A DNA stretch of 44,717 nt. It comes from a virus. The stretch spans positions 1 to 44,717 of the IMG/VR virus record IMGVR_UViG_3300000553_000076. The stretch is one strand, 5' to 3'. The notes under the pieces were generated by a model. That model had not been told where the DNA came from and searched no databases. It worked only from the letters and a program-made list of their open reading frames with translations. The position numbers were made by a program, and so were the translations under genes. Shown here piece by piece: positions 1 through 16,787 of the stretch; positions within the stretch are counted from its first letter, which is position 1, and each line of letters starts with the position of its first letter.

Positions 1-73
1 GAAGCTTACTCTTGGTCTATTTGATAAGTTTACCTGGGACTACTTGCACACTGGTGGCAAATTGATGGTTGCA
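1..73. repeat. Left copy of 73-bp terminal direct repeat (contig overlap)
   Basis: These 73 bases are identical to the last 73 bases of the window. The repeat lies inside a coding sequence and the frame stays open and in phase across the junction. The simplest explanation is a circular or circularly permuted genome linearised by the assembler, not a genuine short terminal redundancy. Confidence 0.95.
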
Positions 74-952
74 GAGGGTTACTTAGAGAAAGCTCGTATC
101 CAAGCTGCTAAAGAAGGCAAACCATTTGATGAGACTAAAGCTCGTAAAGAGATCTCTAACTTTGTCAATGACTCCTTTGGTGGTTTGAATTGGTTTGAAG
201 CTGCTACGTCTGCTCGTACTGAAATGGGTAAACGTATTGCTATGGCTGCATACAACCCTGCTGGTCGTAGAGCATTGCAACTAGCATTGTTTGCTCCCGA
301 CTGGACTATCTCTACTCTTCGTGCCTTTACTGCTGCTTTGCCTAAAGACCTTAACCCAACTAAGTGGCAACCTGTAGAAGGCATTAAAGGCATGATGGCT
401 CCTACAACCAAAGCAGACTACGCTAGGTTGTATCAGTTTAAGACTGCTTTGACTTACTTCACCTTGTTGAATGCTATCAACATGATGACAGCTAACAGAC
501 CTATCTGGGAAAACAAAGATGCAACTCGCATTGAGTGGCCTGATGGTACGTCTATGCAAGCTATGAAGCACGCTATGGAACCGTACCACTGGATTGCTGA
601 TCCAGATAAAACTTTGTCTAACAAGTTGGGGTTTATACCAAAAGCTGCTATTGTTGGTATTGGTGGTTTGGAGTACGCATCTCCTGATGCCCCTAAACTA
701 GTTGACCGCAGTGCTATTGGTAGACTAGAAGCTGTAGGTAAAATGGCTGTGCCTTTCCAAGTATCAGCAGCTAGTACTGCTCCTGAAGGAGAAGGTGCTA
801 AGAGAGCGTTACTGGGAACATTAGGCTTCCCCATCTATGGTGGCACTGCCGAACAACGTAAACAACAAAGAGCCGAACGTGAGAAACAACTTAAAGAAGC
901 TGCTAAACGTTACAAAGAGAAGGCTAAGGAAAAAGGTTGGGATCAACAATGA
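2..952 (+). CDS. C-terminal part of the 1,243-aa ejection/large polyvalent protein
   Basis: This is the end of the gene that starts at 41865 and runs off the right edge of the window. Joining base 44717 to base 74 keeps the frame and gives 1,243 residues in total. This part is helix-rich and contains an NDSFGGLNW segment followed about 50 residues later by LFAPDWTISTLR. I recall that pairing from the C-terminal domain of large phage polyvalent proteins (LPD38 type), a name I have not checked. The tail is strongly basic and charged (KQQRAEREKQLKEAAKRYKEK). The stop overlaps the next start as ATGA (949-952), so the ATP-grasp gene is probably translationally coupled. Its probable role is a virion protein ejected with the DNA, as T7 gp16 and P22 gp16 are. 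Placement in the gene is certain; function is inferred. Confidence 0.85.
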   Translation, partial: KLTLGLFDKFTWDYLHTGGKLMVAEGYLEKARIQAAKEGKPFDETKARKEISNFVNDSFGGLNWFEAATSARTEMGKRIAMAAYNPAGRRALQLALFAPDWTISTLRAFTAALPKDLNPTKWQPVEGIKGMMAPTTKADYARLYQFKTALTYFTLLNAINMMTANRPIWENKDATRIEWPDGTSMQAMKHAMEPYHWIADPDKTLSNKLGFIPKAAIVGIGGLEYASPDAPKLVDRSAIGRLEAVGKMAVPFQVSAASTAPEGEGAKRALLGTLGFPIYGGTAEQRKQQRAEREKQLKEAAKRYKEKAKEKGWDQQ

Positions 953-2280
953 AACTTCTAATCATTGACCAGTTTGACTGTGGCTTCTCTATGGACTTGG
1001 CTATCAAGTCTGCTGCTTATGGTCATGAAGTACGTGTGTACATGCGTAACAACTTTGATGGTAGCCGTTGTGAGAACGGTGATGGTATGGACTGTTTCAA
1101 GAAGGTAGCTGATTGGGAATCCAGTATGAACTGGGCTGACCTTATCTTTGTTACTGATAACAGTCGTTACATCCAGAAGCTTGAGAGCTATCGTCGTAAG
1201 GGTTATCCCATCTATGGCTGCAATGTAGAGGGTGCTCGTTGGGAACAAGATCGGGAGTACGGAGCTGCTGTTTTTGAGAGAGCTGGTATCCCAATTATTC
1301 CTACCATGAAGTTTTCTAAATACGATGAGGCTATTTCTCACGTTCTTAGTAACAAAGACAAACGCTTTGTGTCTAAGCCTATTGGTGACGGAGACAAGGC
1401 TCTTAGCTACTGCTCTAAAGACTGGCGAGACATGGTGTTCATGTTGAACAAGTGGAAGAAGAGCAACGCCTATGACGGTGACTTTGTTCTCCAAGAGTTC
1501 CACGCTGGATCTGAGATGGCTGTTGGTGGTTGGTTTGGTTTGGGTGGCTTCTCTAAACACTTCCTTGAGAACTGGGAGTTTAAAAAGCTAATGTCTGGTG
1601 ACTACGGTCCTGCTACTGGTGAGCAAGGTACTGTTATGCGTTACACCCAGAAGTCTTTGTTGGCTGACAAGGTTCTTAAACCCCTTGAAGACTTTCTTCA
1701 CGGCATTGGTTACTCTGGCTACATTGATGTCAACTGTATCATTGATAATAAGGGTAATCCCTGGCCTCTAGAGTTTACTACTCGTCCTGGTTGGCCTCTG
1801 TTCCAGATCCAACAAGCTCTTCACATTGGTGATCCTGTGCAGTGGATGCTTGACTCTCTTGATGGTAGAGATACTCTTAAGGTTAAAGAAGACATTGCTT
1901 GCGGTATTGTTGTATCTCAACCTGACTATCCCTATAGCAACGTTAAGAAGAAGGAGAACACTGGGTATCCTATCTTTGATTTGACTATGGAAGATGCTAC
2001 TAAGAACATCCACCTGTCAGAAGTTAAAATGGGTTTTAGTCCTGGTAAAGACGGTAAAAACACCGAGCCTTGCTTGGTAACTGCTGGTTCTTATGTGTTG
2101 ACTGTCTCTGGTGTCGGCAAGACTGTTGATGATGCTAAGTGCAAAGCATACGATACGTTCAAGAAGAAGATCCACATGATCAACTCTCCTATGGTACGAG
2201 ATGACATTGGTGAGAAACTTGAGAAGATGTTGCCTGAACTGCAAAAGAACGGCTATTGCAAAGACGTTAAGTACAAGTAA
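949..2280 (+). CDS. ATP-grasp enzyme, PurD-like (phosphoribosylamine-glycine ligase-like)
   Basis: A 443-aa protein starting at the ATG inside the ATGA overlap with the ejection-protein gene; an upstream in-frame TTG at 937 is less likely. The N-terminus (MKLLIIDQFDCGFSMDLAIKS) resembles the Rossmann-like start of PurD. The middle has ATP-grasp features: FVSKPIGDGDKA as an ATP-binding lysine/glycine loop, VLQEFHAGSEMAVGG as the hinge and second strand, and GYIDVNCIIDNKGNPWPLEFTTRPGWP as the metal-binding C-terminal segment. PurD joins glycine to phosphoribosylamine using ATP. This copy sits in the late virion operon between ejection protein and tail fibre, far from other metabolic genes, so its substrate may be a small molecule or a peptide. 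The ATP-grasp fold is well supported; the exact reaction is not. Confidence 0.8.
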   Translation: MKLLIIDQFDCGFSMDLAIKSAAYGHEVRVYMRNNFDGSRCENGDGMDCFKKVADWESSMNWADLIFVTDNSRYIQKLESYRRKGYPIYGCNVEGARWEQDREYGAAVFERAGIPIIPTMKFSKYDEAISHVLSNKDKRFVSKPIGDGDKALSYCSKDWRDMVFMLNKWKKSNAYDGDFVLQEFHAGSEMAVGGWFGLGGFSKHFLENWEFKKLMSGDYGPATGEQGTVMRYTQKSLLADKVLKPLEDFLHGIGYSGYIDVNCIIDNKGNPWPLEFTTRPGWPLFQIQQALHIGDPVQWMLDSLDGRDTLKVKEDIACGIVVSQPDYPYSNVKKKENTGYPIFDLTMEDATKNIHLSEVKMGFSPGKDGKNTEPCLVTAGSYVLTVSGVGKTVDDAKCKAYDTFKKKIHMINSPMVRDDIGEKLEKMLPELQKNGYCKDVKYK

Positions 2281-2282
2281 TC

Positions 2283-4247
2283 ATGGCTAACCCTAACACC
2301 CCCATACCACAGTCTCCCATTGGGGAGAATTTCCAGTGGAGAGATTGGTTCCAAAGACTTAGTAACCGAGTCTATGGATCGTTGTCTTCTCAGAACTCTA
2401 ACGGAGTGGACATTACTGGTGGGACTATTGACAACACAGCTATTGGATCTAAGACCCCCTCTACGGGGTCTTTTACTAGCTTAAAGCTAGGTGCTCCCCT
2501 TGATGTTGAGTACGGTGGTACTAATGGGTTTGCTATACCTAGAGCTGGTGCTGTAGCTTATGGTAATGGTGGTGCTTACGCTTTCACAAGTGTCGGTACT
2601 TCTGGACAAGTACTGACATCTAGAGGTAGTGCTGCTCCTGTTTGGTCTGCTGCTGCCACTGGTACTGTCACTAGTGTTGGTCTGTCACTGCCATCTATCT
2701 TTAGTGTTAGTGGCTCTCCTGTTACTAGTAGCGGTACTCTTACTGGTACTTTTAACACCCAGGCTGCTGCTTTGGTGTTTGCTGGCCCTGCAACTGGTAG
2801 TGCTGCTACTCCTACATTTAGAGCTTTAGTTGCTTCTGATTTACCTTCTTTACCTTACGGTACTGGTACGGTTACATCTGTTAGTGGTACTGGTACTGTC
2901 AATGGTATTACGTTGACTGGTACAGTTACAACTACTGGGTCATTAACATTAGGGGGAACCCTAAGTGGCATATCAAACAGTCAGCTTACGTACTCTAGTA
3001 TTACGGTCAATGGTACTAGCATTGCTCTGGGTGCTAGTGGATCGATTACTGCCGCGAATCCCTACGCCCTTACTATTGGTACTGGACTTTCTGGTTCCTC
3101 TTATATCGGCTCATCTGCAGTAACAATTGCTCTAGCCAATACAACTGTCAGTGCTGGTAGCTATACCTATGGTTCGTTTACTGTTGATGCTCAAGGTCGA
3201 TTGACTGCAGCATCTAGTGGTACAGCTCCTGTTACTTCTGTTGCAGCTACAGCTCCTATTGCTAGTAGTGGTGGTACAACTCCAACCATTTCTATATCCC
3301 AAGCTACAACCAGTACCAATGGTTATCTAAGTAGCACGGATTGGAATACGTTTAACAACAAACAGCCAGCGGGTACATACGTAACCTCGGTGTCTGGTAC
3401 TGCCCCTGTTGTATCGTCAGGCGGCACAACACCTGCTATCAGTATGGCTGCAGCTAATGGCAGCACTAATGGTTACTTGACCTCAACTGATTGGACAACC
3501 TTTAACAATAAGCAGCCCGCAGGTACGTATGTTACGTCTGTATCTGTAGCTTCTAGTAATGGGTTTGCTGGTACTTCTAGTGGTGGAGCTACTCCATCGT
3601 TAACGTTGTCCACAAGTATTACTGGCTTGTTGTATGGCAATGGTACAGCTTTAGCTGCTGCAACTATTAGTAGTCCATTAGCCTACTCTGCTGGTACATT
3701 AAGTATTGGTCAGGCTACAACATCTACTAATGGCTATTTAAGCAGTACTGATTGGAACACTTTTAATAATAAGCAACCTGCTGGTTCTTATTTGACTGCT
3801 GTTACTGCTGATGCTCCTCTGTCTGGATCTGGGACATCTGGTAGCCACTTGGTTATTTCCCAAGCTACTACTAGCACTAACGGGTATTTGTCTTCTACAG
3901 ACTGGAATACATTTAATAACAAACAAGCTGTATCCACACCTGTTACCATCTCTGCTAGTACGTACAGTGTTGGTACAACAGACCTATGGCTTATCAACAA
4001 CTATGCGGGTACGTGTACTCTTACACTTCCTGCAGCATCAAGTTATTCAGGAAGAGTTTTAAATGTTCAAAACTATCAAGCTTACACTGTTGTGTCTGCT
4101 TCTAGTAACGTTGTTTCTATTAGCGGTGGTAGCGCAGGTACGGCTATCCTTAACGCTATAGCCGGTGATAGATGTACACTTGTATCTAACGGCACTAATT
4201 GGTTGATTACTGATTACACACCTAACAACATTCTTCTGTTGAATTAA
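2283..4247 (+). CDS. Tail fibre protein with internal repeats
   Basis: A 654-aa protein very rich in Gly, Ser and Thr. The N-terminal roughly 90 residues (QWRDWFQRLSNRVYGSL, then ITGGTIDNTAIGSKTPSTGSFTSL) look like a virion-attachment domain seen in podoviral and cyanophage fibres. Residues from about 80 to 550 are a long run of TGTVTSV/SGTAPV-type beta repeats. They include four copies of a 16-residue unit close to TNGYLSSTDWNTFNNK, each followed in three cases by QPAGTYVTSV-like text. The last ~90 residues (LTLPAASSYSGRVLNVQNY, then GDRCTLVSNGTNWLI) look like a small C-terminal beta domain. It should be a trimeric receptor-contacting or spacer fibre. It starts 3 bp after the ATP-grasp gene without a clear Shine-Dalgarno sequence. 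Confidence 0.8.
   Translation: MANPNTPIPQSPIGENFQWRDWFQRLSNRVYGSLSSQNSNGVDITGGTIDNTAIGSKTPSTGSFTSLKLGAPLDVEYGGTNGFAIPRAGAVAYGNGGAYAFTSVGTSGQVLTSRGSAAPVWSAAATGTVTSVGLSLPSIFSVSGSPVTSSGTLTGTFNTQAAALVFAGPATGSAATPTFRALVASDLPSLPYGTGTVTSVSGTGTVNGITLTGTVTTTGSLTLGGTLSGISNSQLTYSSITVNGTSIALGASGSITAANPYALTIGTGLSGSSYIGSSAVTIALANTTVSAGSYTYGSFTVDAQGRLTAASSGTAPVTSVAATAPIASSGGTTPTISISQATTSTNGYLSSTDWNTFNNKQPAGTYVTSVSGTAPVVSSGGTTPAISMAAANGSTNGYLTSTDWTTFNNKQPAGTYVTSVSVASSNGFAGTSSGGATPSLTLSTSITGLLYGNGTALAAATISSPLAYSAGTLSIGQATTSTNGYLSSTDWNTFNNKQPAGSYLTAVTADAPLSGSGTSGSHLVISQATTSTNGYLSSTDWNTFNNKQAVSTPVTISASTYSVGTTDLWLINNYAGTCTLTLPAASSYSGRVLNVQNYQAYTVVSASSNVVSISGGSAGTAILNAIAGDRCTLVSNGTNWLITDYTPNNILLLN
3299..3926 (+). 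repeat. Four copies of a TNGYLSSTDWNTFNNK-encoding unit
   Basis: Units lie at about 3299-3366, 3453-3515, 3713-3776 and 3861-3926 within the tail fibre gene. The protein unit is almost invariant (one copy reads STNGYLTSTDWTTFNNK) while codons differ widely between copies. That indicates old duplication under protein-level constraint and not recent slippage. Confidence 0.85.
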
Positions 4248-8289: not shown

Positions 8290-10236
8290 TTAGATTTCTT
8301 CAATATTAAACCAATTAACACCAACAGATGCTCCTGCATTGAGCTTCAGAGCAAGTGGTGTGCCAAACGTATCCAAGAAATACTCATGAGTCCTACTCAA
8401 CATGTTCTTAATAACCTCTAGAAATCCATTTAAGAAATCTTCGTGTACGTCAAACATGATTGAGTCGTGAATGGTGTTAACCATTTTGACTTTATCGTGA
8501 TCCTTGAGTACCTTGAAGATATTGCCCAACATCATTGGAACAATATCACCAGTAGCTAAACCTTGAATTGGATAATTCTTTAGTTCAGTTGGACTGAAGT
8601 TGTACGATCTGCTCGACCAACTACTGTCACTGTGATACTCCTGAAAGTAGAATCGCCTACCTGTTTCAGTTACGTGCGTATAGCTTCGTACCTTATCAAG
8701 TAAACCGTCTTCTCCTTTGGAGTATTGAGCATGTTTCTCAACATGCGCCGCAAATGATGTGTGCCATACAGCTACGCTAGGGTAGCGACCATAGAACACA
8801 TCAATAAACTTCTTAGCCTCGTCTAGGCTGCATCCAGCTTGTTTGCTGATAGCTTTAGCACCAGCACCGTAGATCAATTGGAACGTACGAGACTTGAAAG
8901 GCTTACGCTCTTCCTTGGTTGGATACCTACCAAACATATCTTTGTACAACTCAGAGTGAATGTCAGCACCACCTGAGATGTCTTTGATAAGTTGTTTGTC
9001 ATTGGTAACGTGAGCAAGAGCTACAACCTCTAGTTGATTGAAGTCAACCTCAACAATACGACCACCTGGAAAGCGAGATGTAAAAATCTGCTTGATAGGG
9101 TTGTTGCTGATGTTTTGTAGATTAGGGCTTGTTGATGACAAGCGACCTGTAACAGTCGATGTGTGATTTAACTTGCCGTGTATGTATGATGCACCGTCGT
9201 GCTTAACGATGATGTGCTTGCTAAGACCTTGTACATACGTTGAGAGCTGCTTAGACAACTCACGATATTTCAACAGCTTGTTGATGATTGTCTTAGCTTT
9301 AAGATCAAGCGTATGGTTCAACATGTCGTTAAGGACTTCATCGTCAACAGACACTTGGCCTGTCTTAGCTGATACTTTGTCGGGATCAGGAGTGTACTTG
9401 ATAAACGGCAGCAACGTAACTGCTTTCTCTACCAATTTAAATTTAGGCTTACCATTCTTGTAGAAGCCTACTTCCTCTTTGACCTTGACTTTCTTAGTAC
9501 CACCGAAGAAGAACTGTGACCACTGTTTAGGACTATTGATATCTTCAAGATGTCCACGAGCTAGCTCTTCCAAGTCAAGCTTGACTTGTACGTACTCGTT
9601 GACAACCTCAACTGTGTACTTATCAAGTGCTTCTTTGTCAATGTGTAAGCCGTTGAACATCATCTCTGTTGTAGCGTGTAAGGCTAGCATTTGAGACTGA
9701 ATAAGTTTTAGTTGATTCTGTGCTACAGCTTGCTTGTATTGCTTCTCAGCAATGATGCGAGTGTTGTATACGTCCTGTTCAAGATAAGGAATCAACTCCT
9801 CTTTGGGAATCTTGTCAGAACCTAAACCAGCTTCAAAGTATTTCTTGATGCGATCATCTTTAACTTCTAGTCCATACTTAACTGACAACTCATCTAAGCT
9901 AGAGAACTTAGTGCGTTGACCTGTAAGGATGTACTCAGCTAGTTGTGTATCCCAGATCATGTGGTTCTGTAGAACCTCTTTGGCATGTGTACCTATCTTA
10001 AACAGATACATTAAGTCAAAGCTTAGATTGTGACCACATAGGATTGCATCTCTGGGGAAGGTATATAGCTCACGCTCAAATACTTCTTCCTCGTATGTTG
10101 TTGCACTGAAGTCATCTGCGTCTATGCCATAAGCTACTACGTAGTTATCTGGATGACTAGGATGCGCTGATCCGATTTCTTCATTACCGTTGAGTGTTGT
10201 CTCAACATCTATAGCTACAAATGTAGGATTGGTCAT
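8290..10236 (-). CDS. Family A DNA polymerase with 3'-5' exonuclease
   Basis: A 648-aa protein. The proofreading domain shows Exo I (Asp10 and Glu12 in AIDVETT), Exo II (Asn70 and Asp74 in GHNLSFDLMYL) and Exo III (Tyr151 and Asp155 in YLEQD). The polymerase domain shows motif A (Asp398 in EVDFNQLEV), motif B (KPFKSRTFQLIYGAG) and motif C (NTIHDSIMFDV). At the position equivalent to E. coli Pol I residue 762 this enzyme has Phe452. Motif C is HDS instead of the usual HDE; the catalytic Asp591 is kept. It is slightly shorter than T7 gp5 (704 aa). It is the replicative polymerase, placed between helicase and SSB genes. Confidence 0.95.
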   Translation of the reverse strand: MTNPTFVAIDVETTLNGNEEIGSAHPSHPDNYVVAYGIDADDFSATTYEEEVFERELYTFPRDAILCGHNLSFDLMYLFKIGTHAKEVLQNHMIWDTQLAEYILTGQRTKFSSLDELSVKYGLEVKDDRIKKYFEAGLGSDKIPKEELIPYLEQDVYNTRIIAEKQYKQAVAQNQLKLIQSQMLALHATTEMMFNGLHIDKEALDKYTVEVVNEYVQVKLDLEELARGHLEDINSPKQWSQFFFGGTKKVKVKEEVGFYKNGKPKFKLVEKAVTLLPFIKYTPDPDKVSAKTGQVSVDDEVLNDMLNHTLDLKAKTIINKLLKYRELSKQLSTYVQGLSKHIIVKHDGASYIHGKLNHTSTVTGRLSSTSPNLQNISNNPIKQIFTSRFPGGRIVEVDFNQLEVVALAHVTNDKQLIKDISGGADIHSELYKDMFGRYPTKEERKPFKSRTFQLIYGAGAKAISKQAGCSLDEAKKFIDVFYGRYPSVAVWHTSFAAHVEKHAQYSKGEDGLLDKVRSYTHVTETGRRFYFQEYHSDSSWSSRSYNFSPTELKNYPIQGLATGDIVPMMLGNIFKVLKDHDKVKMVNTIHDSIMFDVHEDFLNGFLEVIKNMLSRTHEYFLDTFGTPLALKLNAGASVGVNWFNIEEI

Positions 10237-10265: not shown

Positions 10266-11531
10266 TTACTCATACCTAGCACGGATAGGATCAATAGTCA
10301 CAAGGTATTGACCGTGACGTTCTGACTCCATCTGTTTAGCACCACCACCAGGAAGTTTGTTCTTAGGAACATTGATAGTACGGATCATCTCTTCCTCTGG
10401 ACTCTTAGGTTCCTTGTACTTACCTAACGTGATAACAACGTCAGCTTCACCAGGCTTGTCAGTCTTGGAACCACGAAGAGCATCAAGACCAATAAACGGA
10501 GGATCTTTGAGATCTACAGCAGTAGCACTTAGCTGTGATGCAGCAATAACTGGACCATAGCTACGAGCTAGCTCACGTGCCCACTTGTAGATCTTACCTA
10601 GACGTATGTCTTCTCTGTCGTCAGACTTACTAAAGCCATCAACCTTGTCAAGCTGATCGAATACGATCAAACCTGGATTGACTTCTTTAAAGAGAGTCTC
10701 AAGGTCTTTGAGATTGTTGGTGTCTTTAGTAACACGGATCTTATCTTTGTTACCACCCATAAGAGTTGTGTAAGCATCCATAGCTGCCTTAGAGTCAGCA
10801 ATGATGTCTTTAGACTCTTTACCGAGAGCAGCTTGAACGATACGGAAGAACACAACAGAAGATTCTTCTTCGTTGTTAACCCACACCACAGGACGATCCT
10901 TGGGAAGTTGTTGAGCCAGATAGCTCACCTCACTGGCTAAGAAAGTTGTCTTGCCCACCTCGACACGAGCAGCAACAATGACAAAGTTGCCAGTGCGGAG
11001 AGGACCAAGAGAACGATTAAGTACGTCCAAGCGCCATTCGTAGCCGGAAGATGATATGCGATCCGCAATAGTAGATAGATCAGCACTAACAAACAGCTCA
11101 TCTTTTTCAATGTATCTCTCCACATCTTTAAGAGCATTGGTTGCTAGGATATGAACGTGTTCAAGATCACTAGAACCTTCTTTGACTTTCTCACATTCCT
11201 CCATGATCTTTGCTAGGTAATCCAACTCGATAAGAGTCTTGATTACTTCTTCGTGAGCATGGTGTGGTTCAAAGTCTTTTGCTTTGGTCAAAGTCATACG
11301 CAGCTTAACGATTGCATCGTCAGTCAAACGCTTGCTTTGATCCGCTATTAAGTATGCAGAGAACGAGTCCCAGTTAACCTTGCTGATGCTTGGAAACGTC
11401 TTGTAGTAACGATCCATACCATCAAGGATAACTGTTGTTTCCTTAGTGACTACATGAGGCTTTACGTACCTCCTGTACTTACTAAAGTTTTCTCTGCTCT
11501 CAGCACAGAGATAAAGAACTGAGTAGTCCAT
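10266..11531 (-). CDS. DnaB/RecA-type replicative helicase
   Basis: A 421-aa protein starting MDYSVLYLCAES; this ATG has AAAGGA five bases upstream, so I reject a longer frame that runs to 11657 inside the primase gene. Walker A is VAARVEVGKTTF (Gly193-Lys194-Thr195). Walker B is GLIVFDQLDKV. VIAASQLS follows, the usual RecA/DnaB motif. The N-terminal 150 residues are helical, as in DnaB-like proteins. It should unwind DNA at the fork. In T7 primase and helicase are one protein (gp4); here they are separate genes overlapping by 32 bp. Confidence 0.9.
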   Translation of the reverse strand: MDYSVLYLCAESRENFSKYRRYVKPHVVTKETTVILDGMDRYYKTFPSISKVNWDSFSAYLIADQSKRLTDDAIVKLRMTLTKAKDFEPHHAHEEVIKTLIELDYLAKIMEECEKVKEGSSDLEHVHILATNALKDVERYIEKDELFVSADLSTIADRISSSGYEWRLDVLNRSLGPLRTGNFVIVAARVEVGKTTFLASEVSYLAQQLPKDRPVVWVNNEEESSVVFFRIVQAALGKESKDIIADSKAAMDAYTTLMGGNKDKIRVTKDTNNLKDLETLFKEVNPGLIVFDQLDKVDGFSKSDDREDIRLGKIYKWARELARSYGPVIAASQLSATAVDLKDPPFIGLDALRGSKTDKPGEADVVITLGKYKEPKSPEEEMIRTINVPKNKLPGGGAKQMESERHGQYLVTIDPIRARYE

Positions 11532-12297
11532 TGAGTTCCTTTGGTTTATATTGTTTTGGTTCTTTACTGTTCTCGTAGTTGAAGATTTCAACATCACGAT
11601 CCAGATAGTGTGAAAGTGTCTCCTGCACTTTCCGTGCCCCCTTTCTCCCTGCTTCATCAGGGTCTAGCCATATAAAAATCTTCTTGAAACCTAGTTCACT
11701 GATTTGGATCAGAGTCTTGTCAGTGATCGTTGTTCTTAGTAACGCTAGCGAAGTAGCATCCAGGTCATTGTGAATACGGTACGCACTGAGATAGTCCTCG
11801 GTGATGTACAGAGTCTTACCTTCACCTTTAAACCAAGCAGAGTCTGCTGTTGTGCTTGTGATCTTTGTCAGATACTTAGGTTCCTTCTTCAGATTCCTGA
11901 TCTGATAGCCTATAGGATTCCAGTGTGGGTCATACAGAGTTAGAGCAACTTGATCTAGGTGGCCTAGTACACCTCTGAAGTAGACATCTGCTGGATCGCA
12001 ATAGTGCTTGTGCAGCCACACCTTACCTTCGGGACTTAGTGGTCCAAATGTAGCTTTGAAGCTGCTGTGATTGGTCGTCGTGTCTTTGTGGAGCCACTCC
12101 GACAACCTGGAGCTAGTGTCTGATGCGAAGCCCTTGTCGTTGCAGTGGTGGCAGTATGCAAGCAGACCTTTTTCTGTACGCTTGATGTACAACCTACGCT
12201 TCTTGTCCTCACCTGCTTCGCAGCCTGTGTGGTTAACGTGTACCTGCTGCCCAATGTTACTAGGAGCATTAGCTAGGATTAGCTGTTTGCTAATCAC
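11500..12297 (-). CDS. DNA primase with Toprim domain, T7 gp4 N-terminal-like
   Basis: A 265-aa protein. The N-terminal zinc-binding region has Cys26, Cys49 and Cys52 (NHTGCEAGE and LLAYCHHCND), with a fourth ligand probably His. The Toprim domain shows Glu167 in LYITEDYLSAYRI and Asp212/Asp214 in FIWLDPDEAGRKGARK. It should make RNA primers for lagging-strand synthesis. The start is in an ATGA overlap with the 83-aa gene and the end overlaps the helicase start, so production of the two is likely balanced by coupling. It corresponds to the front half of T7 gp4. Confidence 0.9.
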   Translation of the reverse strand: MISKQLILANAPSNIGQQVHVNHTGCEAGEDKKRRLYIKRTEKGLLAYCHHCNDKGFASDTSSRLSEWLHKDTTTNHSSFKATFGPLSPEGKVWLHKHYCDPADVYFRGVLGHLDQVALTLYDPHWNPIGYQIRNLKKEPKYLTKITSTTADSAWFKGEGKTLYITEDYLSAYRIHNDLDATSLALLRTTITDKTLIQISELGFKKIFIWLDPDEAGRKGARKVQETLSHYLDRDVEIFNYENSKEPKQYKPKELNGLLSSLSLC

Positions 12298-13361: not shown

Positions 13362-13396
13362 AAAACTCAAAATAGAAAGCTCTCTCGTAGGAGAGC
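13362..13396 (-). terminator. Intrinsic terminator after the AAA+ ATPase gene
   Basis: On the leftward transcript GCTCTC (13391-13396) pairs with GAGAGC (13379-13384), loop CTACGA, followed by TTTCTATTTTGAG. It lies in the 66-bp gap between the ATPase stop and the HTH start, so it separates the ATPase/VWA unit from the replication unit, perhaps partially. Confidence 0.7.
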
Positions 13397-13412
13397 CTTG
13401 TGGTTTTGACTT

Positions 13413-14552
13413 TTAGTCTTCTCTAGAACCAAACACTTTGTTGAACAACTCGTCAGCAACCTTACGTTGTGTCTCATTTAGTTTGTTGAGATACACAACC
13501 TTGTAAGCTTTCTTGAGTGTGTAACCAGCAGCCATCTTTCGGCAGATACTGAACAACGAACGAGGAGACACCGTAAGATTAAACTGTCCAGCTTGATAAC
13601 CTTGACGAATCAAGTTAGCTAGCTTAACAAGTTCTTTGGTAGTCCTAGGAGCAATTGATGCACTCCACTTGTTGTTGATCATTTGTTCCTCAACCAATGG
13701 GTTGAGATAGTTGATGTATACCGCAGTACCAAAGCGATCCAATGTAGCAGAGTTTTGAACGTTAGTACCAGCATGTGAACCAGTGTCATCGCCTTGACCT
13801 TGTGTATTACCAATAGCGACTAGCCTGAAATGCTCGTGAGGGACAATTTGTTTGTCTTTGGTACTACCAGGCATCTCTTTGAGAAAGAGCTTGCCGTTGT
13901 CCTCTAAAAGCCACTGTAGACCCATTGAGATCTCAGGAGGTGTTACATCCCACTCGTCCCAAGCGAATACTGCACCGTACTTAACAGCTTCGGTAACAGC
14001 ACCGTCAACCCAGATTGTTGAACCATCCTTAGCCGTTAGTTGACCAAAGATCATTGAAGAATCCATATCGCCAGTGCAATTAACTCGAACGAAAGGACGA
14101 TTAGTAAGAGCACAAAGCTGTTGAATAAGACTTGATTTACCGGCCCCTGTAGGGCCATAGCAAAGAACTTTCTCATTTAATTCCCACGCTAAAAGAATGT
14201 TAGAGGCTGCTTCCTCTTCGATGACATAGCCTTTATCGACTTCTGGAATGAAAGGAACTAAGCGTTCATCCCACTCATAGTCGTGAAAGCAAGTGACACC
14301 AAAGTCATCTTCATCCCTAACGTAGACACCTGTAAGCTCTGAGAAAAACTTTTGATTGCTTTTGAGCTTCGGATGAGCTACCACTGCTGGTTCTTTCATT
14401 TTGGATTTCCTACTCTCTACCATTTCGTCAATCAAAGCACCAACTTCATCAGCTAGGCTTGGTTCACTACTTGGTGCAGTAGGACGTTTACGTCTTTCTA
14501 ACTCTCGTTTGAGAGCCTCCTTGACTAGATCGTCTACCTTTGGACTAGACAT
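13413..14552 (-). CDS. MoxR/CobS-type AAA+ ATPase
   Basis: A 379-aa protein. Walker A is CYGPTGAGKSS (Gly133 to Ser140). Walker B is AVFAWDEWDVTPPE (Asp199, Glu200). Sensor 1 lies in LVAIGNTQG, and LDRFGTAVYI supplies a likely arginine finger. About 60 charged N-terminal residues precede the ATPase core. This layout fits CobS and MoxR ATPases, which act as rings with a VWA-domain partner to insert metals or remodel proteins. The partner gene lies directly upstream and overlaps it by 8 bp. No cobalamin genes are present, so cobalt chelation is unlikely. The phage role is unknown. Confidence 0.88.
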   Translation of the reverse strand: MSSPKVDDLVKEALKRELERRKRPTAPSSEPSLADEVGALIDEMVESRKSKMKEPAVVAHPKLKSNQKFFSELTGVYVRDEDDFGVTCFHDYEWDERLVPFIPEVDKGYVIEEEAASNILLAWELNEKVLCYGPTGAGKSSLIQQLCALTNRPFVRVNCTGDMDSSMIFGQLTAKDGSTIWVDGAVTEAVKYGAVFAWDEWDVTPPEISMGLQWLLEDNGKLFLKEMPGSTKDKQIVPHEHFRLVAIGNTQGQGDDTGSHAGTNVQNSATLDRFGTAVYINYLNPLVEEQMINNKWSASIAPRTTKELVKLANLIRQGYQAGQFNLTVSPRSLFSICRKMAAGYTLKKAYKVVYLNKLNETQRKVADELFNKVFGSRED

Positions 14553-16335
14553 GTATTACCTTCCTCTCTATTAAAGAAATCAACTTACTTGGAATCTCTG
14601 ATGGATCTCTTACGACATCATGAGCTTTGTAGTAATGGCTAACTGAGTCACTGCAAAGACCTAAGCCGTAGATGTCCACTTTCTTAGAACGTTCTATCTC
14701 TTGAATAGCTTGTAGCGTAAAGCCTTCGATACCGTTAGAGCTTTTAGAAGCTGCTGGACTACCGTCAGACATTACGATCAAGATCTTTTTTTTCTCCTTA
14801 CGTTTAATAAGCCTGTCGTATGACCACAAGATGTTCTCACCGTCAGGATTACCATTCATAAAGCGACTGCTCTTAGAAAATGATTCAATCAACGCATCAT
14901 TACTGACACGATGATCAGAGAATGATTTGTAGATGAACATCAATGGAGATATGTTGTAACCATCTGTGTCAGTGAAGCCCAAGATCTCAACTGGAATGTT
15001 AAGAGTCGAAGAGACTTCATTGAGTAACAACGTAGATGCCAAAGCGTAATAAGCTTTGTCACCATTCATTGAGCCAGACATGTCAACCAGAACTGTGATA
15101 GCAGCATCCAGAGTCTTGTTCTCAATTTTGTTCTTAAAGATTCGTTCATTGAAGCCAGGAGCATTGAAGCAGATACGAGACAACCTAGATTGATCTAGCT
15201 TGCCTTTCTTCGTACCATACTGTGTCTGTACCCTAGCTCGTATCTGAATGAGCTTACGAACTTGTTGAGCAAAGTTCTCTTGACTGACTAGCTTGTCACC
15301 AACTCGTACTTCATACTGTTCTTTGAAGTATTCGGTGTGTATGCTAGTAAGCCTCATCTGTTCTGGACCAGTGTTTTTAGGATAGTCAACAACTATAAAC
15401 TTGCTATAGTCGGTCATATCCCAGTCCATGTTGTCCACATTGACTGGTTCAACAATGTTGATGCCGATCTTACCCATCTCTTCGCCTTCTTCAGGCACTG
15501 TCAATGAGTACTTATCGAGATCTTCCTTGCTTAACTTAACGTCAAAGATCCTGTAATCATCTTCTTTTAGCTTTTCCCCACTACCTTTGTCTTCCGACGC
15601 AGATTCAGGACCAGTTTCTATAGAAGTAGATTCTTCACTTTCACCGTCTTTGCCCTTAGCTTTACCAGAAGACTTTTGAAATTCTTCCTTTAGCTCTTCT
15701 TTGCACTCTTCACCTAGCTCTTTGAGGATGTCAACAGCCAGTTGATAGGTGCTTTCGGTACCTAACCTCTTGTCGAGGATTTGATGACAAGCAATAAGAC
15801 GACTACTATTGTTATTAAGAACATCTGTTATCTCTTTGTTAGGAGTGAACTTGCTAGCTGCCATCTCCAGTAATGGAAAATGATGAGCAAGCAGCTTTGT
15901 CTCCCAACAAATGAGAGCTGTGGATAACTTACCAATGAGTGTGTCTTGCTTCTTTGCAGCAGTAAGAACACGAGTTACGATTGGTGAGCTAGTTTCATCC
16001 CAATTGTCTCTGAAACCTTTGTACTCGTTAGCCTCAATGGTGTTAATCCTTGAGTCTTCCAAGAAGTTCCAAACAAACATCAAGATGCTTTTAGGATCTA
16101 TCTTCTTCTCCTTGAGAACATCAAAGCAACTAAAACGATCATGAGCTACCTCGTGATCAACAGATGCCATGAGTTCTTTTAGGTCACTAAGACTTGTCTC
16201 TGTAGTGATTTTGGGAAGATAGATTGTCTTACCATCATGTCGAGGTTGATTGACATTTTCAAATACGACAGAGATGCCAGCTCTACCAGCACTAGCTCTG
16301 ACGTATTTCATAACCTCAATGCTTTGGGTTAGCAT
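14545..16335 (-). CDS. CobT-like protein: zincin HExxH motif plus VWA domain
   Basis: A 596-aa protein. Near the N-terminus an HEVAH motif (residues 61-65, in MASVDHEVAHDRF) fits a zinc metallopeptidase-like fold. Residues about 205-265 form an acidic, low-complexity linker (KGKDGESEESTSIETGPESA), as in CobT. The C-terminal third is a VWA domain with the MIDAS motif TVLVDMSGSM (Asp418, Ser420, Ser422) and later LIVMSDGSPAA. VWA proteins of this type are substrate adaptors for a MoxR/CobS ring; the ATPase is encoded immediately downstream. The combination resembles bacterial proteins annotated as a putative metallopeptidase plus VWA (DUF2201 type, from memory). Whether it cleaves anything is unknown. 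Confidence 0.85.
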   Translation of the reverse strand: MLTQSIEVMKYVRASAGRAGISVVFENVNQPRHDGKTIYLPKITTETSLSDLKELMASVDHEVAHDRFSCFDVLKEKKIDPKSILMFVWNFLEDSRINTIEANEYKGFRDNWDETSSPIVTRVLTAAKKQDTLIGKLSTALICWETKLLAHHFPLLEMAASKFTPNKEITDVLNNNSSRLIACHQILDKRLGTESTYQLAVDILKELGEECKEELKEEFQKSSGKAKGKDGESEESTSIETGPESASEDKGSGEKLKEDDYRIFDVKLSKEDLDKYSLTVPEEGEEMGKIGINIVEPVNVDNMDWDMTDYSKFIVVDYPKNTGPEQMRLTSIHTEYFKEQYEVRVGDKLVSQENFAQQVRKLIQIRARVQTQYGTKKGKLDQSRLSRICFNAPGFNERIFKNKIENKTLDAAITVLVDMSGSMNGDKAYYALASTLLLNEVSSTLNIPVEILGFTDTDGYNISPLMFIYKSFSDHRVSNDALIESFSKSSRFMNGNPDGENILWSYDRLIKRKEKKKILIVMSDGSPAASKSSNGIEGFTLQAIQEIERSKKVDIYGLGLCSDSVSHYYKAHDVVRDPSEIPSKLISLIERKVIHV

Positions 16336-16340
16336 GGTTC

Positions 16341-16787
16341 TTACTTACCGTACAGGAAGTCTTTAACCAATGTGTAGACACGAGTACCATCAATATCATC
16401 AGGAACTTTGATCAACAGATCAATGACCTTTTGAGCGTATTTCTCATCAGTCATTGGTTCTTTCTTGTCGATCTTCATTTCTTTGATCTTGCTTTGCAGG
16501 TAGGTCTTACCGCAATACTTACCGTTGTCATCAATGAGTCCGATACCAAGCTTCATAGCACCTTGAATCACAGCTTTAGCTGATCTCCAAGAGCCAGGCA
16601 TAGCACCGATGTCAAACTCTTTCTTGATGATTTTCTCAGTCTCTTTAACTTCTTTCTCGAAGGTCTCTGGTGTGCTATGTGAATAAGCAACACTGATCAT
16701 TTTCTCGAAAGTGCTAGTAGCTGAAGTCTCTGAGACCAAAGCTTCAGTAGCAGCAGAATAGAGAGTTGAAACGTCTGTTTCTTCCAT
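16341..16787 (-). CDS. Companion protein of the AAA+/VWA pair
   Basis: A 148-aa protein starting MEETDVSTLYSAATEALVSE; the ATG has a strong AGGAG five bases upstream, which decides it over a longer frame. It is helical and Lys-rich, with KLGIGLIDDNGKYCGKTYLQ in the middle. The stop is 5 bp before the VWA gene, so the three genes form one unit. I recognise no domain. By position it could be a substrate or regulator of the ATPase machine. Confidence 0.65.
   Translation of the reverse strand: MEETDVSTLYSAATEALVSETSATSTFEKMISVAYSHSTPETFEKEVKETEKIIKKEFDIGAMPGSWRSAKAVIQGAMKLGIGLIDDNGKYCGKTYLQSKIKEMKIDKKEPMTDEKYAQKVIDLLIKVPDDIDGTRVYTLVKDFLYGK

Follow-up and report, generated by a model that had tools for sequence, protein, structure and literature searches.

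Phage-borne relatives of CobS and CobT, two proteins of the aerobic cobaltochelatase (CobN-CobS-CobT), are read in ecological work as auxiliary metabolism for vitamin B12, and cobS belongs to the core genes of T4-like cyanophages (PMC3037559). The question whether such a pair does serve B12 synthesis, or acts on other proteins instead, is raised by the 44.7-kb virus record IMGVR_UViG_3300000553_000076 (analysed over its whole length and hereafter called the window), in which the pair is encoded directly behind a third gene, p148. Two papers from 2021 read pairs of this kind in opposite ways, i.e. as agents of B12 synthesis or as a peptidase-chaperone. In the one, cobST was recorded in tailed viruses of eight orders, a hijacking of CobN was proposed and the peptidase annotation of the cyanophage proteins was called a mistake (Liu et al. 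2021, PMC8651126); the CobN idea was repeated in a later paper (PMC12043954). In the other, a MoxR AAA+ protein of jumbo phages (group 2.2) was described together with a vWA protein bearing an N-terminal metallopeptidase, and a role in virion assembly was proposed (Iyer et al. 2021, PMC7824862). The evidence collected here favours the peptidase-chaperone reading. On the basis of sequence we propose that the three genes encode an ATP-driven protein-processing (zinc-peptidase/remodelling) machine of the phage replication phase, and we put the probability of this reading at roughly 0.58.

The ATPase, its partner and a putative metal site

All three genes lie on the minus strand of the window. The ATPase gene (13413..14552, 379 amino acids) matches Pfam AAA_5 (3e-18), phrog_249 (3.9e-68), the CobS model TIGR01650 (9.6e-35, under its equivalog cut-off) and, in the PDB, CobS 9ujv (3.2e-33) and midasin (8e-39). 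Its Walker A motif GPTGAGKS (residues 133-140, 14133..14156) and Walker B region FAWDEWD (residues 196-202, 13947..13967) contain six of the residues that are invariant among 18 diverse homologues, namely G133, G136, G138, K139, D199 and E200, to which the sensor and arginine residues N249, R273 and R331 are to be added. The protein is a CobS-type AAA+ ATPase (MoxR/CGN clade). The partner (14545..16335, 596 amino acids) matches Pfam CobT_C (1.6e-23), phrog_17276 and phrog_1576, and its family profile aligns across nearly the whole length with cobaltochelatase CobT 9uka (1.1e-58). It carries the metal-ion-dependent adhesion site (MIDAS) DMSGS of a VWA domain (residues 418-422, 15070..15084), of which D418, S420 and S422 are invariant, as are D498 and D524 further on, which is the pattern of a VWA/MIDAS co-chaperone; in a structure search of the PDB with the partner model, VWA folds including NorD and the MDN1 MIDAS domain came out on top. 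Judged by these matches both large proteins are relatives of cobaltochelatase CobS and CobT, a kinship that was omitted when the first-pass annotation rightly described an AAA+ protein with Walker A/B motifs and an HExxH-VWA partner, and placed HEVAH and MIDAS at exactly the residues given here.

The part of the partner that sets it apart from the chelatase lies at the N-terminus. A putative metal-site helix contains HEVAH (residues 61-65, 16141..16155; predicted helix 49-68 with a predicted local distance difference test score, pLDDT, of about 82-86), and a second predicted helix (84-104) contains NFLED (residues 90-94, 16054..16068), with D94 as the candidate third metal ligand. Among 57 relatives, collected by whole-protein search with search patterns that did not include HEVAH and of which one spanned part of the N90 region, H61, E62, H65, N90, E93 and D94 are invariant together with the MIDAS residues, and because of this invariance the motifs are not due to chance. 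A wider set comprised 22 partner proteins, which are encoded by phages, by an archaeal virus, on plasmids and, in one case, in a genomic operon of mobile type. HExxH is present in 17 of these 22, N90 and D94 both occur in 17/17 of the HExxH-bearing proteins, and they never occur together in the HExxH-less ones; the protein of phage ICP2 has lost E93 and retained D94. Since N and D co-segregate with HExxH and ICP2 keeps D94 without E93, the comparison points to D94 as the probable third ligand. Carriers of the site are the window clade, ICP2, CRP-810, T5S1, SSU5, Rhizobium phages, S-PM2, P-SSM7, HVTV-1, Gordonia phage Gray, and IncA/IncC and other plasmids. The partner thus appears to have the HExxH and the conserved downstream third ligand of a zincin-like metallopeptidase, and we consider it likely that the metal site is functional.

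In chelatase CobT the corresponding position is taken by DSMAL-type residues in place of HEVAH. Rhizobiales CobT proteins read DSMAL-type and D..EQ in 80/80 cases, 398 genomes sampled from the same phylum yielded 39 more CobT-type proteins, none of which has the HExxH motif, and in total the metal site is absent from 119/119 cellular CobT proteins examined, as well as from the solved CobT 9uka. The lone genomic exception (G313) encodes CobS, a DUF3150-like protein and a HESAH-VWA protein consecutively, i.e. it has a mobile-type operon, and no CobN match was found in it. On a CobS tree, of which the root is unknown and several rows are long-branched, the 18 chelatase-type sequences form one clade (100/99), outside of which the five sequences of the window clade form a separate one (100/99). 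The nearest supported neighbours of the chelatase clade are the HExxH-bearing CRP-810 and T5S1 pairs, and no fewer than five changes are needed to explain the distribution of HExxH. In the simplest reading HExxH is ancestral and was lost several times, once in the ancestor of the chelatase.

The third gene and the unit it belongs to

The gene p148 (16341..16787, 148 amino acids, no characterised homologue) is the first of the unit; in the direction of transcription it is followed by the partner, the ATPase and a hairpin resembling an intrinsic terminator with a T-rich tail (13376..13399, minus strand, folding z = -3.1), of which the inverted repeat scores on the plus strand too. The gap between p148 and the partner gene is 5 nucleotides and the partner and ATPase genes overlap by 8; the open reading frames, this gap and a terminator of the unit's own had all been correctly noted in the first pass. 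In relatives the p148-CobT junction ranges from an 11-nucleotide overlap to a 5-nucleotide gap and the CobT-CobS overlap from 4 to 38 nucleotides. Because the junctions touch nearly or overlap, translational coupling is suggested.

The earlier expectation that the three genes form a constant unit was borne out by a co-occurrence check, in which p148 was found directly upstream of CobT, with the genes consecutive, in all 54 loci that extend far enough upstream (47 close and 7 more distant ones). The genes around the unit behave differently. The next three genes upstream of p148 are retained in 0/44, 6/43 and 0/42 loci, and the four genes after CobS in 0/65, 0/64, 0/63 and 0/59; farther on, the primase (50/50), helicase (42/42) and polymerase (38/38) are present in all loci with enough flank. 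Mere synteny is thereby ruled out as the cause of the constancy of p148, and because it is kept while the immediately adjoining genes on both sides are exchanged, p148 is a real third component within the window clade. Seen from the other side, CobT directly follows p148 in all 122 p148 loci examined, which represent 66 distinct junction sequences, and p148 without CobT was never observed among them. As a constant neighbour the third gene holds within this clade only: it is absent from the neighbourhoods read of ICP2, CRP-810, SSU5, T5S1 and nickie and from the plasmid and Pseudomonadota loci that were read, and it was not found in cultured phages by tblastn.

An AlphaFold2 model of p148 is all-helical, with seven helices and a mean pLDDT of 86.8. 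The protein has no credible match in Pfam, PHROG or the PDB, and its predicted structure resembles only uncharacterised phage proteins (BFVD). Its conserved core consists of MPxxWRSxK and NGxxxGK. A relationship to DUF3150 was rejected (hhalign probability 0.1%, E 0.67).

Replication context, proposed mechanism and rival explanations

The structural genes of the window (terminase, portal, capsid, tail) are on the plus strand. The unit is located on the minus strand, in a replication arm that comprises endonuclease I, an exonuclease, DNA polymerase (8290..10236), a DnaB-like helicase (10266-11657) and DNA primase (11500-12297), the latter two being the conserved replication neighbours. The ICP2 pair sits upstream of primase and helicase in the same arrangement, and primase-DnaB is near the pair of Gordonia phage Gray. 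The pairs of SSU5 and nickie are near DNA ligase and DNA polymerase, that of T5S1 is near DNA polymerase and those of the cyanophages are near gp46/47 and sliding clamp genes, while the IncC plasmid module has ssb-bet-exo as neighbours. The pair thus accompanies replication or recombination genes across unrelated carriers.

In the mechanism that we propose, the CobS-type AAA+ protein probably forms a ring, and the VWA/MIDAS domain at the C-terminus of the partner would dock on it, as is the case in NorQD, CbbQO, cobaltochelatase and midasin; by homology to the same systems, the ring would shift the MIDAS-VWA partner relative to a client. In the N-terminal part of the partner, H61, H65 and probably D94 would bind zinc with E62 as the catalytic base, and a substrate that is engaged or remodelled by the ring could then be cut at this site. 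ATP-coupled cleavage is the most economical reading because an intact zinc site is added to the ring/MIDAS pair, and proteolysis by the partner seems somewhat more probable than not. The role of p148 would be that of a dedicated adaptor, a regulator or a substrate; we prefer the adaptor, at slightly less than even odds. Likely targets would be DNA-bound proteins, i.e. nucleoid, replication or defence proteins of the host, or the phage's own replisome, and that the target acts in the replication phase is about an even bet.

Several observations weigh against this proposal. The top 50 PDB structure matches of the partner model are all VWA folds, without a zincin fold among them, and the whole-partner model is of modest confidence (pLDDT 69; predicted template modelling score, pTM, 0.46); in this model helices and a hairpin follow each other in an order that is plausible for a zincin. 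A search of the PDB with the N-terminal profile returned nothing but the degenerate CobT itself and a chance-level match to AcrIIA26. D94 aligns with an Asp of Pfam DUF2201_N ('putative metallopeptidase domain'), with H, E, H, N and D all matching, but the alignment is weak (probability 10%). Because members with HExxH were chosen for two of our alignments (A4 and A5), the H-E-H invariance is partly circular there; the invariance and co-segregation of N and D are not. Furthermore, p148 is limited to one phage clade and other phages have CobT without it; being clade-restricted, it can not be essential to a general mechanism. Finally, the homologues of nickie, ZY21, ANB28 and Acinetobacter p5634 have lost HExxH and yet retain the pair with MIDAS and CobS.

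This last observation makes remodelling without cleavage viable, and the main rival is indeed that the system is an ATP-driven chaperone or remodeller only, in which the HExxH domain is either structural or a peptide-binding relic and the pair, without cutting anything, remodels a complex in the manner of NorQD, CbbQO or midasin. MoxR-VWA pairs of known biochemistry are understood to remodel (see PMC7159879), the four mobile-element homologues without the metal site still have the pair, the VWA domain has NorD and the MDN1 MIDAS domain as its PDB relatives, and the ATPase matches midasin. We nevertheless consider this rival unlikely, as H, E, H, N and D are conserved together in proteins from bacteriophages, plasmids and an archaeal virus, which implies that selection keeps the metal site intact, including the Glu of the catalytic base. 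The idea that phage CobST and host CobN together raise the B12 supply for a B12-dependent ribonucleotide reductase (RNR) (Liu et al. 2021, PMC8651126) can draw on the CobS homology and full-length CobT homology described above, on the many phages annotated accordingly and on its standing in the literature. The scores, however, are far below the NCBI equivalog cut-offs (120.3 versus 558.6 bits for the ATPase and CobS, 89.2 versus 759.1 bits for the partner and CobT), and the metal site is missing from every chelatase CobT examined. CobN was detected in 0/25 window-clade phage records and an RNR match in 1/25 related phage records, no cobalamin riboswitch was present in the gathering-threshold Rfam matches, and the relative ct2os315, which does carry a B12-type RNR, has no CobST. 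The window pair is therefore very probably not a cobaltochelatase and a role in B12 supply is highly improbable; the early suggestion that it is not a cobalamin enzyme and plausibly remodels or cleaves a protein is in line with these sequence data.

A role in virion assembly or maturation, in which the pair would process structural proteins, was proposed for the jumbo-phage MoxR-vWA-metallopeptidase pairs (PMC7824862), i.e. for the same architecture, and in ATV the MoxR-vWA pair p618/p892 has been linked to tail development. This, too, we regard as improbable, given that the window unit belongs to the minus-strand replication arm and is set apart from the plus-strand structural genes, that other carriers have the pair among replication and recombination genes, and that related systems occur on plasmids, which have no virion.

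The absence of CobN alone was not used as proof against a B12 function, because three cellular genomes with an ordinary, HExxH-less CobST (G318, G360 and G080; L334, L335 and L339), of which the completeness is unknown, had no CobN match either. They hint that cellular CobST may also serve other ends. On the Pandoraea plasmid pPO70-1 (L083, 4147-6984), a chelatase-type cobS-cobT pair directly follows ureG in a urease cluster, perhaps for metal insertion with another purpose.

Relation to known systems and implications

The first-pass annotation saw in this locus the best candidate for an undescribed system, a view that is not supported: a CobS relative is present in 617 records of sequenced phages, CobST pairs are common among phages (PMC8651126) and the MoxR-vWA-metallopeptidase pair was published in 2021 (PMC7824862). 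The phage 'CobST' pairs (ICP2 gp41/gp42, cyanophage peptidase-CobS, Druskaviridae) belong to the same two-gene family and have kept HExxH-N-D and MIDAS, but p148 is missing from ICP2 and from the other phages that were checked, and the published reading is B12 synthesis. The likeness to the jumbo-phage pair of Iyer et al., with its adjacent MoxR AAA+ and vWA-metallopeptidase genes, is at the level of motifs and description; the window differs in that the phage is of 45 kb, that a third gene is constant and that the unit lies in the replication arm. The aerobic cobaltochelatase (PDB 9uka series) has a homologous AAA+ protein and a CobT that is homologous along almost its entire length, but cellular CobT lacks the metal site, the chelatase forms a separate clade and no CobN was found with the window pair. 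In the AAA+/DUF3150/HExxH-VWA module of IncA/IncC and other plasmids the VWA partner likewise has HExxH and N..D, and the module includes a third gene and lies in a recombination context, but no relationship of DUF3150 to p148 was detectable, and an AAA+ gene was seen close to the module in Rhodanobacter and G313 only and was not in the stretches that were read for IncA/IncC or Halomonas. With NorQD, CbbQO and midasin/Rea1, the closest solved folds, the pair has the AAA+ ring and MIDAS-VWA partner in common; to our knowledge no metallopeptidase-like domain has been described for these. Other ternary MoxR-vWA systems have been described (Kaur et al. 2020, PMC7159879), with a VMAP, iSTAND, FtsH or beta-propeller component; p148 has no such Pfam match, on a comparison that did not proceed component by component with profiles. 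The present analysis adds the motif by which these partners differ from true CobT, the third subunit, the setting among replication genes and the findings against a B12 role within the clade, although earlier statements to this effect may exist.

Some further observations concern the relatives and the record itself. The nearest cultured relatives by the window DNA polymerase are Vibrio phages VP41s3 and ICP2, and closest to its terminase are those of an uncultured phage and an Alcaligenes phage. Single CobT queries from ICP2 or T5S1 found no relatives among viral contigs. In ct2os315 (MW202796.1), which lacks the CobST unit, the interval from primase to arm end contains a Gp88-family gene and the gene of the antirestriction protein ArdC, which is a zincin of another kind (L413, 15863-17411); ArdC in place of the CobST unit is suggestive, from this one comparison. 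On IncA/IncC and other plasmids (L080, L081, L082, L085) and in G313 (L331), DUF3150 adjoins the HExxH-bearing VWA relative of CobT, in several cases beside ssb, bet and exo, and a phage CobT matches 1747 plasmid records by tblastn, a count that includes phage-plasmids. Near the start of the window (44-4247, plus strand), a PurD-like ATP-grasp gene (937-2280) is flanked by genes of unknown function (44-952 and 2283-4247), and a homologue of its product is encoded near the record end in ct2os315.

It is possible, and we put it forward tentatively, that the viral 'CobST' proteins are a broad family of zinc peptidases, driven by AAA+ proteins and acting on DNA-associated proteins in replication or host takeover, of which the chelatase would be a branch minus the peptidase site and to which the window-type phages would have added p148. 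If this is true, many viral 'B12 auxiliary metabolic genes' are misnamed. By the presence or absence of HExxH...N-x3-D, a simple test, most proteins of mobile elements can be told apart from true CobT and the B12 claim can be tested directly, and p148 offers a small and specific handle for finding the substrate.

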